A DNA stretch of 34,136 bases, from positions 1 through 34,136 of IMG/VR virus record IMGVR_UViG_3300050116_000025; one strand, given 5' to 3'. The notes under the pieces were generated by a model. That model ran no database searches and had not been told where the DNA came from. It saw only the letters and a program-made list of their open reading frames with translations. Shown here one piece after another: positions 25,490 to 29,580 of this stretch; within the stretch, counting starts at the first letter, position 1; every line of letters starts with the position of its first letter. The translations under genes were made by a program, and so were the position numbers. This stretch comes from a virus.

Positions 25490-26305
25490 TCAGGCTGCCA
25501 CTCGCGAGGCGAGCTGCCAGAGGGCCAGGTTGGTATCGAGCTCACGACGGATGTGCGTGATGCCACGCGTCGTCGCTGCTCGCTGCTGACCGGTCGTGTG
25601 CTGAATCTGAACCCCGCCTCGGACGAGATTCTCCTGGACGACGTTATAAGTGGTCCAGAGATCGTTCGTCTTGTCCTGCTCACGACGCGGGACCAACAGC
25701 AACTTCGCATCGAAGTCGACATTGTCGAAAACGATTTCAGCGGCCTTCTGCGCGAAGCGCAGCTGTGCCGCCGGGGTCAGCTTCTTCGCTGCCATCTTCT
25801 CGACGAACTGCGCCGCGGATGCGGCCTGCGTGACCGCCTCGCGAATCTGCTTCAGCATCTCCTCAAGGTTGCCGCGGTGGATCAGCGCAATACCCTTGAA
25901 CGCCATTGTCGAGATGGCCATGCCGTTTAAGCAGGCGAGACGCAGGAGTCCCCCGAACAGGCGGTGGCGCGACTGGCCGTCGTGGCTGTTCTCGAGGTGC
26001 ACCTCCGGGAAGACGTCGCCGACGATCGGCTTGTCCTTAAGGCGGCGCATGCGAACCAAGTGACGCGTGAAGCGAGGATCGCGATGGCCAAAGCGAGTCG
26101 CACGCTGCGCAACATGCGTGATGGCGTAGCCGTCCTTCAGAAGCGGCTCGATCACGTCAGCCGTCGAGAGGAAGGTGTAACGCTCAGACATCTTCGGGTG
26201 GGGGGCCGTTGCGAACAGCGACGGGAATTTCTTAAGCTCGTCCATCGAGAGACCCTTCGGGTCCGTGATCGACGGGAAACGAGCCATGGTTGTGGATCGG
26301 GTCAT
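25490..26305 (-). CDS. DUF932-like protein
   Basis: 271 residues from ATG 26305 with AGGAG seven bases ahead; an inner ATG at 26287 lacks a site. The order fits DUF932: PHPKMSERYTFLSTADVIEP near residue 36, VFPEVHLENSHDGQSRHRLF around 98, GGLLRLACLNGMAISTMAFK, then IRRELDTNLALWQLASRVAA. In this family the N-S-H-D-G-x-S block followed by R-L-x-C-x-N-G is the hallmark. DUF932 proteins are widespread in plasmids and phages and often highly expressed early; the biochemical role is unsettled. A type II hammerhead ribozyme occupies the leader directly upstream (26328-26384). Confidence 0.85.
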   Translation of the reverse strand: MTRSTTMARFPSITDPKGLSMDELKKFPSLFATAPHPKMSERYTFLSTADVIEPLLKDGYAITHVAQRATRFGHRDPRFTRHLVRMRRLKDKPIVGDVFPEVHLENSHDGQSRHRLFGGLLRLACLNGMAISTMAFKGIALIHRGNLEEMLKQIREAVTQAASAAQFVEKMAAKKLTPAAQLRFAQKAAEIVFDNVDFDAKLLLVPRREQDKTNDLWTTYNVVQENLVRGGVQIQHTTGQQRAATTRGITHIRRELDTNLALWQLASRVAA

Positions 26306-26327
26306 TTCAATCTCCTACTTTGTGTGT

Positions 26328-26384
26328 GGTCTCATCAGTGGGGCGAATCACGCCCAGACGCAGCGTCCCTGCCGCGTTTCGACC
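26328..26384 (-). ncRNA. Type II hammerhead ribozyme, copy 1
   Basis: On the - strand, 5' to 3': stem II GGTC (26384-26381), core GAA (26380-26378), stem III ACGCGGC with GCTGCGT (26377-26371 and 26364-26358; one G-U pair) closing loop AGGGAC, cleavage base C (26357) after U of the A-U pair, stem I TGGGCG with CGCCCCA (one bulged C) closing loop TGATT, core CTGATGA (26338-26332), stem II GACC (26331-26328). All invariant hammerhead bases are present and the A15.1-U16.1 pair is in place; predicted cut between 26357 and 26356. With stem II open it is type II. Its first base is shared with the TAG stop of the upstream gene. Confidence 0.93.
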
Positions 26385-26710
26385 TACTCAGCTTGTTTCT
26401 TCAGAAGTGATACCGAGGATCGTCCCAACAGTCGCGCAGCAGCTTCGAGTGAGGCCTTGCGACGAACTTCCATCGCCTGCTTGTAGGGCCGCGTCTTCCC
26501 TGAGTAACTCACCCAGCATTCAGGATCGAGCTTGTAGGCCTGATCCTTCACGCTCTGAGACCACCGCTCAGGTTTCTCCTCGAAGTGATTCCATCGACGT
26601 ACCAGCTCATCGGCCTCTTCTCTACTGAGGGACGACTCGACGTGCCCGAAGAGCGGGGTCACCATCCACTTAGCGCAGCCGCAGGGACACGGGATAGCCT
26701 GGACGATCAT
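26384..26710 (-). CDS. Small early protein with Cys cluster
   Basis: 108 residues from ATG 26710 in an ATGA overlap, with GGGGAG eight bases ahead; a longer in-frame start upstream falls inside the preceding gene. The N-terminus has CPCGCAKW (Cys8, Cys10, Cys12), a possible metal knuckle, followed by a helix (SLSREEADELVRRWNHFEEK), an acidic-aromatic WVSYSGKTRPY and a basic helical end (SLEAAARLLGRSSVSLLKKQ). Function unknown. Its stop codon is immediately followed by hammerhead copy 1. Confidence 0.65.
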   Translation of the reverse strand: MIVQAIPCPCGCAKWMVTPLFGHVESSLSREEADELVRRWNHFEEKPERWSQSVKDQAYKLDPECWVSYSGKTRPYKQAMEVRRKASLEAAARLLGRSSVSLLKKQAE

Positions 26711-27381
26711 GGTGACTGCTCCCCAGATTTGCCCCAAGGCAGACCGAACTTGCCAGCGCAGATTCGTCCATATCCGACGACAGTCGAGCGCTCATCGGTT
26801 AGCTGCAACGAGCAGAAGCAGCAGTGGCCGGTCAAGTGCCCGAACTCAGCAGCAACGCGCGCCGGATCCTGACCAAGCCGCATCAGCAGTTCGACGAGGT
26901 TGGTCTCGCAGACGTGGCCATCCTTGCCAATCGTCAGCTGCCCGTCCGGCGAGATGCGACCGTAGTAGCGGTTGCTCCCGAACGCTTCGCCGTCTGTCAG
27001 GACGAGGAAGCCGGGGGTCTTCGAGCGTTCGCCCGCGATTGTGATCCGCAGATCGTCGCCGAGGGGGAGCTTCAGCCAGAGCTTCGGGAACTTCAGGCCG
27101 TTCTCACGTGCCTTCGTCAGCAGCGCGACGACGCCCGACATACCTGAGAGCTGAACCGGCGTCTGCGCCGACGCAGGGGGACGCGTGAATCGATCGACGA
27201 GCTTGTCTACCCAAGCAGCCTGCTTGATCGACAGGCCACGGTTATCGGCAGCTCTCAGGAGAGAGTTGATGAAGTTCTTGTCAGACTCGGGGATGCGTCC
27301 GTTGGCGTACAGCTGACGCAGGGATGATACCATTTCGGCGGTCTTGCGCGCTCCCTGGAACTCTTCTAATGGCGTGGACAT
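26707..27381 (-). CDS. DUF6011-like zinc-binding early protein
   Basis: 224 residues, ATG 27381 with GAGGAG ahead. An N-terminal helical part (MVSSLRQLYANGRIPESDKN, KQAAWVDKLVDRF), a central beta region (LKLPLGDDLRITIAGERSKT, YYGRISPDGQLTIGKDG), and a C-terminal zinc-binding part: GHCCFCSLQLTDERSTVVGY then GRICAGKFGLPW, with Cys187/188, Cys190 and Cys208. This C-terminus is the DUF6011 pattern, found at the end of many phage early proteins of unknown role, often with a DNA-related domain. The leader contains hammerhead copy 2. Confidence 0.75.
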   Translation of the reverse strand: MSTPLEEFQGARKTAEMVSSLRQLYANGRIPESDKNFINSLLRAADNRGLSIKQAAWVDKLVDRFTRPPASAQTPVQLSGMSGVVALLTKARENGLKFPKLWLKLPLGDDLRITIAGERSKTPGFLVLTDGEAFGSNRYYGRISPDGQLTIGKDGHVCETNLVELLMRLGQDPARVAAEFGHLTGHCCFCSLQLTDERSTVVGYGRICAGKFGLPWGKSGEQSP

Positions 27382-27404
27382 TTTGGATTCTCCTCGGTTA
27401 ATTT

Positions 27405-27461
27405 GGTCTCATCAGCGCCAGCATCACTAGCGGACGTCGCCATCCCTGCGACGTTTCGACC
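27405..27461 (-). ncRNA. Type II hammerhead ribozyme, copy 2
   Basis: On the - strand, 5' to 3': stem II GGTC (27461-27458), GAA (27457-27455), stem III ACGTCGC with GCGACGT (27454-27448 and 27440-27434), seven perfect pairs closing loop AGGGATG, cleavage base C (27433), stem I CGCTAG with CTGGCG (27432-27427 and 27421-27416) closing loop TGATG, CTGATGA (27415-27409), GACC (27408-27405). Compared with copy 1, stems I and III carry several paired changes that keep pairing, while cores and loops stay the same. It begins directly after the TAA stop (27464-27462) of the upstream gene; predicted cut between 27433 and 27432. Confidence 0.94.
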
Positions 27462-27992
27462 TTACTTCAGGGCTCCTCGGATCGCAGCTTCGTTATCGTA
27501 GGGTGCGTGAAGGCCGGCCTTGCGTAGCTTGCGGCGTGCAGCTGTTGGCTCGATCTTCAGCTCGTTGCAGATTGCCCCCAGGATCGTCGAGTGCGACGCA
27601 GACGCGCCGTTCGCCTTCTCCTCGGGGGGCGTCTCAGAATGGACTGGCGTTTCGATGAACTCGATGTCCTCGGTCGGTACGTTCCCGTCGAGGACTCGCT
27701 TGATCAACTCGATCGCGCCTTGCGTCGCCGTACGGCGTATCTGCTCGCGATCGAGCAAGGACATGAAGTACTTCGCGCAGGCCTTCGGTTCGTACGCTTT
27801 GCCTTTGTGGGGGACCACGCGCATCTTGTCGTAGTGTCTGAGCTCGACGCGCAGGATGCGGATCGTCCCTTCGTCATTGATCACGCAGGAGGCGAACTTG
27901 CGCCCCCGTAGGCAGAGCGCAGGTTTGAGCCCAGAGTTGGTCAGGTCAGTTACGGGATCGACTGTCTGGATGTACTTAACGCTTGCTTCCAT
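27462..27992 (-). CDS. Early protein with C-terminal ARRKLR helix-turn-helix-like module
   Basis: 176 residues, ATG 27992 with GGGAG ahead, overlapping the preceding small gene by 17 nt. The N-terminal part (MEASVKYIQTVDPVTDLTNS, KFASCVINDEGTIRILRVEL, YFMSLLDREQ) is unassigned. Residues about 132-176 (STILGAICNELKIEPTAARR, then KLRKAGLHAPYDNEAA) form a three-helix-like module also seen at the end of the 29989-30306 product. The module could bind nucleic acid or a protein partner. Directly followed by hammerhead copy 2. Confidence 0.65.
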   Translation of the reverse strand: MEASVKYIQTVDPVTDLTNSGLKPALCLRGRKFASCVINDEGTIRILRVELRHYDKMRVVPHKGKAYEPKACAKYFMSLLDREQIRRTATQGAIELIKRVLDGNVPTEDIEFIETPVHSETPPEEKANGASASHSTILGAICNELKIEPTAARRKLRKAGLHAPYDNEAAIRGALK

Positions 27993-28113
27993 CGGAGTTC
28001 ACTCCCAGGGTTTGCAGGTGGGCCCGCAGCGAATTGATGAAGTTCACCAGCTCGTTGCGGGTCTGCCGTTCCGCTTGTGCGGTTTGTTCGCCGTGAGCGT
28101 CTTCGTCAATCAT
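27976..28113 (-). CDS. Very small early protein
   Basis: 45 residues, ATG 28113 in an ATGA overlap with the upstream stop. Sequence MIDEDAHGEQTAQAERQTRN continues through a helix (ELVNFINSLRAHLQTLG) to DGSKR. The chained overlaps (4 nt upstream, 17 nt downstream) support translation. Function unknown; too short for most gene callers. Confidence 0.55.
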   Translation of the reverse strand: MIDEDAHGEQTAQAERQTRNELVNFINSLRAHLQTLGVNSDGSKR

Positions 28114-28298
28114 GCTGTTTTGTCCTTCTGTTTCAGAGTGCAACGGTTTTGCGTTCTATGAATTTCAATCCTTCGGGCCACATCCTCAATGGCCATGCGT
28201 TGGCCGTCCAACGTGGCCCACCCGTAAAGCGGATAAACTGGCCCGGTCTTTTGGTAATCAACGCGGTCGGCTTCCGTGGCTTTGATTACGAGGCTCAT
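28110..28298 (-). CDS. Small early protein of unknown function
   Basis: 62 residues, ATG 28298 in an ATGA overlap. Sequence begins MSLVIKATEADRVDYQKTGP, then VYPLYGWATLDGQRMAIED, and ends in a basic region (RRIEIHRTQNRCTLKQKDKT). No recognised motif. Part of the coupled block behind the leader with hammerhead copy 3. Confidence 0.6.
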   Translation of the reverse strand: MSLVIKATEADRVDYQKTGPVYPLYGWATLDGQRMAIEDVARRIEIHRTQNRCTLKQKDKTA

Positions 28299-28657
28299 GA
28301 CACAAACTCCGCGCCGTCAACGCCATGCTGAATGGCGAGCGCCTTGCCTGCGTCGGTGAACTGCAGCCATTGGCAACCTTCGCCGTCGTCAAATGACGTG
28401 ACCAAACCGGCGCGCTTCAACTGCGTCAAGTTGCCACGGTCCTCTTTGCTGCCGCCCACGTTCCCACCGATCAGCGGTGTGCCGCGCCAGTTTCCGGCGT
28501 CGCGTGCGTAAGCGAGGAAAAGTTCGAGTGACCGGGGTGTGATCTGTTTGCTCATCTTCAATTCTCCTAGGCTCATCAGTACTGGCATGTCAGACTGCTG
28601 AGAGAGGGTGTACTTCGTGCCATTAGGCATCGTGAACTCTTTTTTGAACGTGGTCAT
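28295..28657 (-). CDS. Winged-helix-like early protein, possible internal start
   Basis: 120 residues from ATG 28657 with GGAGG at good distance. The C-terminal 86 residues (KQITPRSLELFLAYARDAGN, RGNLTQLKRAGLVTS, CQWLQFTDAGKALAIQHGV) have the look of a winged helix: helices followed by an L-x-F-T-x-x-G wing. A second start, ATG 28555, has its own AGGAG site and would make only this domain. The first 34 residues are therefore either an N-terminal extension or a separate regulatory peptide. It is the first gene after the ribozyme-containing leader, so autoregulation is conceivable. Confidence 0.65.
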   Translation of the reverse strand: MTTFKKEFTMPNGTKYTLSQQSDMPVLMSLGELKMSKQITPRSLELFLAYARDAGNWRGTPLIGGNVGGSKEDRGNLTQLKRAGLVTSFDDGEGCQWLQFTDAGKALAIQHGVDGAEFVS

Positions 28658-28688
28658 TTCGGATTCCTCCAGTTTTGGGATTGGGCTT

Positions 28689-28777
28689 GACTCGTCAGTA
28701 CGGCGGGAGCCACCCGCGCGTATACGATCGACGACAGCCTGAAGCTGTTACGCGCAACGCGCATCGATCGTTTCGTC
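28689..28777 (-). ncRNA. Type II hammerhead ribozyme, copy 3 (long stem III)
   Basis: On the - strand: GAC (28777-28775), GAA (28774-28772), stem III ACGATCGA with TCGATCGT (28771-28764 and 28731-28724), eight perfect pairs. The 32-nt interior carries two small hairpins (GCGC-GTT-GCGC and ACAGC-TTCAG-GCTGT). The cleavage base is A (28723), the NUA type. Stem I TACG/CGTA plus GCGGG/CCCGC with one bulged C (28722-28713 and 28707-28699) closes loop TGGCT. Then CTGACGA (28698-28692) and GTC (28691-28689). The core is complete with N7 = C. Stem II has only 3 clear pairs, the weakest point. It lies 31 nt before the start codon at 28657. Confidence 0.85.
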
Positions 28778-29058
28778 TTTACCGGGATTGGATGCCGCTG
28801 CTATTTTTGTTTTGGAGACGGCCAGCCCGGGACCTGAATCGTGGTCAGTCGAGGTAGTTGAAGGTTCGTTTTCTGATCGTGACCCGAGCTCGTTTCCCCG
28901 GGAGAGTGTTCGTCAGAAAGTCCTGGGCCTACCCTGCCTTGTCTTCCTTGACGTGTACATAGTAAGCTCTTCCCATTGACATGTAAATAGGTAAATAGGG
29001 AATTAAATCAACGTGTTGCGCGAGGCGAATTGCGTATTTGCCGGCAAAAACGAGGATT
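28778..29058 (-). promoter_or_regulatory. Non-coding leader with candidate promoter
   Basis: No convincing gene on either strand. An AT-rich patch at 28976-29011 stands out from the GC-rich surroundings. On the - strand it holds TTGATT (29011-29006) and TATTTA (28989-28984) separated by 16 bases, a fair sigma-70-type promoter that would give a leader of about 310 nt containing hammerhead copy 3. The repeat GTAAATAG-GTAAATAG (28983-28998, + strand) overlaps the -10 box and could be an operator. Confidence 0.45.
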
Positions 29059-29580
29059 TTATTCGACGTGCTTCCAGTTCTTGCGTCGGATGATTCCACG
29101 GACGGCCGCGTAGGTCATTCCGTAGTCCCGACTCAATTGAGTGATTGTCCGTTGATTCGTGGCGTGGAGTCCCCTGATCTGGGCCACGTCTACCTCGGTG
29201 AGTTTCGATGATTTTACCTGGGAGCCCACGGGGCGTCGATTCCTTCGGTTACACTCAGCGGCATTCTGAGTCGCAGTTCCTAAGTGAAGATGTCCCGGTC
29301 GAACGCAATTCCGAATATCACACCCGTGGAGGACGAGGAGTCCCCGTGGAATAGGGCCATGAGTCAGCTCATACGAGAGTCTATGGACCAAAGTTGGTAT
29401 CTGGTGGCCAGAGGGCTTCAATAGACCAGTACCGATCACTCCTGATCCTGCGATTCCTCTTCGCTTATTCCTTGCTCCTTTCCAAAGCCAGCAGGTTGAG
29501 GTCTTTTCAACTCGAGTCCAAAGTTTCTTCTCGAGAAGCTCACGTTGTATCGAGGTCAATCGGTTGATGGAAAAGGTCAT
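29059..29580 (-). CDS. HNH endonuclease with C-terminal HTH-like domain
   Basis: 173 residues, ATG 29580 in an ATGA overlap. WLWKGARNKRRG near residue 31, then VHRLSYELTHGPIPRGLLVL with His66, HGCDIRNCVRPGHLHLG with His85, Asn91 and His97, followed by NAAECNRR: the HNH_3 pattern of phage homing-type nucleases. The C-terminal part (SKLTEVDVAQIRGLHATNQR, ITQLSRDYGMTYAAVRGIIR) is a helix-turn-helix that would give DNA specificity. The region is less GC-rich than its neighbours, as often for mobile nuclease genes. It could be a free-standing homing endonuclease or a packaging-linked HNH; early position favours the first. Confidence 0.83.
   Translation of the reverse strand: MTFSINRLTSIQRELLEKKLWTRVEKTSTCWLWKGARNKRRGIAGSGVIGTGLLKPSGHQIPTLVHRLSYELTHGPIPRGLLVLHGCDIRNCVRPGHLHLGTATQNAAECNRRNRRPVGSQVKSSKLTEVDVAQIRGLHATNQRTITQLSRDYGMTYAAVRGIIRRKNWKHVE

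Follow-up and report, generated by a model that had tools for sequence, protein, structure and literature searches.

The window analysed here, the whole 34,136-base IMG/VR virus record IMGVR_UViG_3300050116_000025 from an uncultured phage, carries on its minus strand three elements that are, judged by their sequence, genuine type II hammerhead ribozymes. The locus is a further case of the clustered phage hammerheads known since 2011, with three same-strand copies at gene-block borders in a virus record, and what is added here is the regularity of the pattern. We propose, with a probability of roughly 0.66, that these hammerheads cleave the polycistronic RNA at the borders between gene blocks while it is being transcribed, which would give the gene blocks protected ends and a standard leader.

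The descriptor used for detection requires the full core and all three stems (GAAA, stem III, U-H, stem I, CUGANGA and the closing stem II). It matches the window at exactly three places, all on the minus strand (copies 1 to 3, Table 1), with no fourth hammerhead anywhere in the window, and 200 dinucleotide shuffles gave 0 matches. The descriptor thereby reproduces the number, the coding-strand coordinates and the cut positions given in an earlier note on this DNA, and sub-threshold RF02276 matches agree with the coordinates. Recomputing the leaders returned the 65, 51 and 51 nucleotides (nt) listed there, and the layout bears out the placement of each element, which follows a stop codon (or lies in a leader) and precedes the next ribosome site. 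The stem III hairpins that the note had placed 27 and 29 nt past the upstream stop codons are present, but they belong to copies 3 and 2 instead of 1 and 2. All three copies have the core C3 U4 G5 A6 N7 G8 A9, G12 A13 A14 and A15.1-U16.1, with an H17 that is never G; stems I and III are closed by loops, stem II is open, and all stems are formed. In copies 2 and 3 the pairing is retained despite different stem sequences. The minimum-free-energy fold of each excised segment is the hammerhead; since the folding z-scores of the three copies are modest (-1.5 to -1.9), the call rests on core and stems and not on folding energy. A possible contact between stem I and the stem II side comprises 4, 4 and 3 pairs in copies 1, 2 and 3, respectively.

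At its gathering thresholds, Rfam returned no match. With relaxed E-values (positions 25800-29400), three of four matches were to RF02276 (Hammerhead_II), at the exact places and on the same strand, with scores of 28.7, 24.6 and 23.8 bits for copies 1 to 3 against a gathering score of 37; the earlier note had listed the lack of a covariance-model match above threshold as refuting its reading, and with Rfam all three copies do lack one. This failure is a weak test because Rfam misses nearly all of this subclass, recognising only 3 of about 60 core-perfect hammerheads in 12 array loci. As the RF02276 cut-off also rejects some 57 of these 60, we base the call on the core, the stems and an independent covariance model, R1, which was built from 58 hammerheads of other contigs and none from the window. 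R1 scores copy 2 at 62.4 bits (E 2.5e-17) and copy 3 at 54.7 bits (E 6e-15). That the elements are chance or dead look-alikes devoid of activity appears very improbable: the scores below the Rfam gathering score and the modest z-scores would fit such a reading, but the empty shuffles, the strong R1 scores and a geometry common to many other hammerheads speak against it. Phage hammerheads in which loop I is short and of the GUNANGC form look like a subclass lacking the published pseudoknot. Pairing between loop I and the 3' tail is possible in copy 1 (GGCU/AGCC or GGGU/GCCC); among 194 relatives such complementarity shows no enrichment, at 2.92 compared with 2.86 for shuffled tails. Covariation counts on alignment A3 were overwhelming in appearance but circular, the descriptor having demanded paired stems, and are not used as evidence. 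Other Rfam families gave no convincing match in the window.

Relatives were fetched by the exact pattern GGTCGAAAC, 26-50 bases, CTGATGAGACC, which yielded 64 stretches from contigs of bacterial genomes and at least 120 from viral contigs. Applied to the 120 viral stretches listed, the descriptor identified 197 hammerheads, including 52 that the exact pattern itself does not match; the set holds near-identical contigs and stretch pairs from one contig, so that the counts are not fully independent. Among the matches listed, to which all positional figures for relatives given here refer, the distance from stop codon to hammerhead has a median of 2 nt and lies between -1 and +6 nt in 146 of 187 cases, while the distance from cut to start codon has a median of 50 nt (interquartile range 45-57). 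Both parts of this geometry are in place for 66% of relatives on the sense strand and for 0% on the antisense strand. The typical layout is a stop codon, a 57-nt ribozyme, about 21 nt and a start codon. Among hammerheads with strong stems, 168 have perfect cores and 3 have one change, although stems and loops have diverged, and copies are somewhat more alike within a contig (0.48) than between contigs (0.40). Long arrays occur as well, with 12 same-strand hammerheads in 5.6 kilobases of L122 (1651-7239), nine that bracket eight single genes in L075 (minus strand) and six in L112 (minus strand); nearly every gene or gene pair in these three arrays is bracketed. The genes downstream of hammerheads encode mostly unknown small proteins and a few regulators. 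We found no description of the stop-codon spacing or of arrays of 9-12 copies in the literature searched, which was chiefly open-access, and do not claim either as a first report.

A second set of loci shows conservation of hammerheads at a gene border. In 16 loci from bacterial metagenome-assembled genomes (L131-L188), mostly of Candidatus Gastranaerophilales and assumed to be prophages, a gene of about 90 codons is bracketed by two hammerheads. In many species the two are separated by 350-390 bases; the leaders measure 45-52 nt, the ribozymes follow the stop codon at a distance of 0-7 nt, and the encoded proteins of about 90 amino acids share a median identity of only 26%. As the loci were pulled by the hammerhead pattern, losses are under-counted.

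Hammerhead cleavage leaves a 2',3'-cyclic phosphate on the upstream RNA and a 5'-hydroxyl on the downstream RNA. Building on the observed motif, fold, position, recurring geometry and core conservation, and by analogy with this known chemistry for cleavage and end types, we propose the following hypothetical sequence of events in which (i) the ribozymes would cut the polycistronic RNA co-transcriptionally at gene-block borders; (ii) the stem III hairpin, bearing a 2',3'-cyclic phosphate, would form the 3' end of the upstream message about 28 nt past the stop codon; (iii) the downstream message would open on the stem I hairpin itself, its first nucleotide bearing a 5'-hydroxyl; and (iv) this message would keep a leader of about 50 nt carrying the ribosome site. 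The presumed benefit would be insulation and mRNA protection, both ends being capped by hairpins and offering no 5'-monophosphate to decay enzymes, so that gene blocks could be expressed independently, as with engineered RiboJ insulators in E. coli. The effects of RiboJ in E. coli, an increase of about twofold in mRNA and 2- to 10-fold in protein (PMC6206723), make such a benefit plausible. The recurrence of the geometry in many unrelated phage loci supports the transcript punctuation suggested in the earlier note, which nevertheless stays a plausible inference from sequence.

Several points weigh against this proposal. Transcription across all three sites is assumed. Copy 1 combines an A at H17 with a stem II of three pairs, and it was not detected by R1, which we attribute to its long, branched stem III and its different loop I. 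Unmasking of the ribosome site, considered as a source of benefit, was rejected: the predicted exposure is hardly altered by cleavage (0.51 to 0.59, 0.54 to 0.48 and 0.42 to 0.48), and any gain must therefore come from stability or insulation. We accordingly prefer protection and insulation to a translational switch. Around the window's own gene families the ribozymes are sporadic, and their absence at these borders in related phages, which the earlier note had listed as refuting its reading, is largely what is seen: 76 of 80 DUF6011 contigs have no R1 match nearby, among them the three closest (53-63% identity), and only 4 of 80 do. The ribozymes are thus neither required to express those genes nor a fixed part of these borders. 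In more distant phages, a DUF6011 gene is bracketed by hammerheads in L122 (5858-6564) and L028 (1522-2366), both pulled by the ribozyme pattern, and one stands beside hammerheads in L248 (4618) and L259 (4705); a hammerhead precedes a DUF932 gene in L006 (2676). In raw counts, DUF6011 and DUF932 genes hence recur beside hammerheads in distant phages, yet the ribozymes are present in some contigs and missing from others. When the DUF6011, DUF932 and helicase-like proteins served as queries, viral contigs yielded no close relatives of the phage, and MW202455, the nearest named phage by its exonuclease (43.5%), has no hammerhead in the stretch examined.

This sporadic presence is what would be expected if the hammerheads were active passengers, small elements that spread into the non-overlapping gaps of compact phage genomes because a cut there does no harm, and that bring the phage no benefit. 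The window copies do occupy just the three non-overlapping gaps, and the somewhat greater likeness of copies within a contig is as duplication would give. We nevertheless consider this explanation unlikely, since passengers would not readily account for near-perfect cores (168 to 3) amid diverged stems, for uniform 50-nt leaders combined with stop-codon abutment, or for the strict sense orientation; moreover, the bracketing of one gene family is maintained across the Gastranaerophilales loci, and persistence at borders is partly seen.

The same abutment raises the question of whether cleavage is regulated. The controlling agent could be the ribosome that completes the upstream gene, within whose footprint the 5' strand of the ribozyme would lie in most of the 187 cases (offset -1 to +6), or a binder of the stem III insertion of copy 1, which has two extra hairpins. 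Compact phage genomes alone would yield stop-codon abutment, however, and large-stem copies, although mainly first in their arrays (3 of the 41 first copies as opposed to 1 of the remaining 80), are few; we regard regulated cleavage as improbable. We also consider unlikely a widespread phage system in which serial, stop-codon-abutting hammerheads, up to 12 per operon, would yield individually end-protected messages with standard leaders of about 50 nt, their cutting gated by the terminating ribosome. Gene-bracketing pairs are common, and by hammerhead chemistry two sense-strand cuts at each block of the window would free RNAs of 1290 and 1076 nt with a 5'-hydroxyl and a 2',3'-cyclic phosphate, which RtcB or reversal of the ribozyme reaction might join into gene-length circular mRNAs. 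Such circles seem extremely improbable, given that a search by Perreault et al. (PMC3088659) for products of such arrays that were spliced or circular is reported to have turned up none. We retain the cutting of a polycistronic RNA into insulated, end-protected messages as the preferred explanation.

Copy 1 may be another kind of hammerhead. It has no adjacent stop codon, occupies a leader position, carries two extra hairpins in stem III and has a weak promoter-like site upstream. Among the matches listed, 27 of 36 first copies in arrays adjoin a stop codon, compared with 72 of 80 later copies, and three of the four cases with a core span above 65 nt are first copies, a comparison that involves small numbers.

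Table 1. Hammerhead ribozymes and neighbouring features of the window (aa, amino acids).
Feature	Position	Strand	Details
Hammerhead copy 1, leader type	28689..28777	-	predicted cut 28723/28722; 65-nt leader to ATG at 28657; stem II gac/guc (3 pairs); long 9-pair stem III closed by two further hairpins; H17 = A
Hammerhead copy 2	27405..27461	-	directly after TAA stop codon 27462-27464; predicted cut 27433/27432; 51-nt leader; stem II GGUC/GACC; stem III CGUCGC/GCGACG; loop I motif GUGAUGC; H17 = C
Hammerhead copy 3	26328..26384	-	begins on the final G of the upstream TAG stop codon; predicted cut 26357/26356; leader of 51 nt; stem II as copy 2, stems I and III of other sequence; H17 = C
First gene block, between copies 1 and 2	27462..28657	-	four overlapping small genes of 120, 62, 45 and 176 aa
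Genes of the first block	28295-28657, 28110-28298, 27976-28113, 27462-27992	-	borders overlap and carry no ribozyme
Predicted excised RNA, first block	28722-27433	-	1290 nt
Second gene block, between copies 2 and 3	26384..27381	-	DUF6011 gene (26707-27381) overlaps a 107-aa gene (26384-26707)
Predicted excised RNA, second block	27432-26357	-	1076 nt
DUF932 gene after copy 3	25490..26305	-	phrog_12094, E 1.2e-45; Pfam DUF932, E 5.5e-25
Weak promoter-like site upstream of copy 1	28959..28987	-	TTTACA-17-TACTAT, 9 of 12 consensus positions

Among the minus-strand genes from 34058 to 25490, borders free of hammerheads overlap or nearly touch, and the three real gaps hold one hammerhead each. Describing these genes as one early operon is an interpretation of their layout only, and the label 'winged-helix' that the earlier note had given the first gene finds no support in Pfam or PHROG. 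Four promoter-like matches were found in the region, where about two are expected by chance. Between an HNH gene and copy 1, a small minus-strand reading frame with one in-frame TAG, MSMGRAYYVHVKEDKAG(amber)AQDFLTNTLPGKRARVTIRKRTFNYLD (28846-28982), overlaps the promoter-like site; it has no relative in the phage collection and is a pseudogene, a sequencing error or simply no gene.

The Hammerhead_II threshold of Rfam passes over most ribozymes of this type, so that their extent in phages is probably underestimated. Papers from 2017 and 2023 describe the role of phage hammerheads as unknown (PMC6155905, PMC10085705); the regular layout, the arrays of 9-12 copies and the gene bracketed across Gastranaerophilales loci make specific and simple tests of this role possible.

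The earlier note had regarded serial punctuation of an operon as a distinctive RNA-processing system; this overstates its novelty, since the same arrangement, its interpretation and activity data had already been published in 2011. Perreault et al. (PMC3088659) reported type II hammerheads in clusters that flank phage genes and proposed that long phage transcripts are processed into single-gene mRNAs. Of 18 consensus hammerheads tested there, 14 were active; three arrays were active in vitro, and the A. tumefaciens triple array also in E. coli. The flanking genes of clustered phage hammerheads were not constant. The available part of that paper offered no comparison for the stop-codon or leader spacing.

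The window copies resemble the type II family of that work (RF02276) in their core, three stems, open stem II and phage setting, and differ in scoring under its gathering threshold. Copies 2 and 3 fall into the subclass with a GUNANGC-like loop I and give no sign of the consensus pseudoknot between loop I and the 3' tail, whereas copy 1, apart from a large insertion in stem III, comes closer to the Rfam consensus. The prophage clusters of Agrobacterium tumefaciens (ardA), Azorhizobium caulinodans and Clostridium scindens likewise flank single genes or short blocks and were assigned the same role in cutting long phage transcripts (PMC3088659); they flank other genes, and their activity was demonstrated, whereas the window copies are known from sequence. 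RiboJ (PMC6206723) shares with the window copies a hammerhead upstream of the ribosome site and a trimmed leader that retains a hairpin. In contrast to the serial ribozymes between phage genes, however, it is an engineered element, a plant satellite RNA hammerhead with an added hairpin that is used singly after a promoter.

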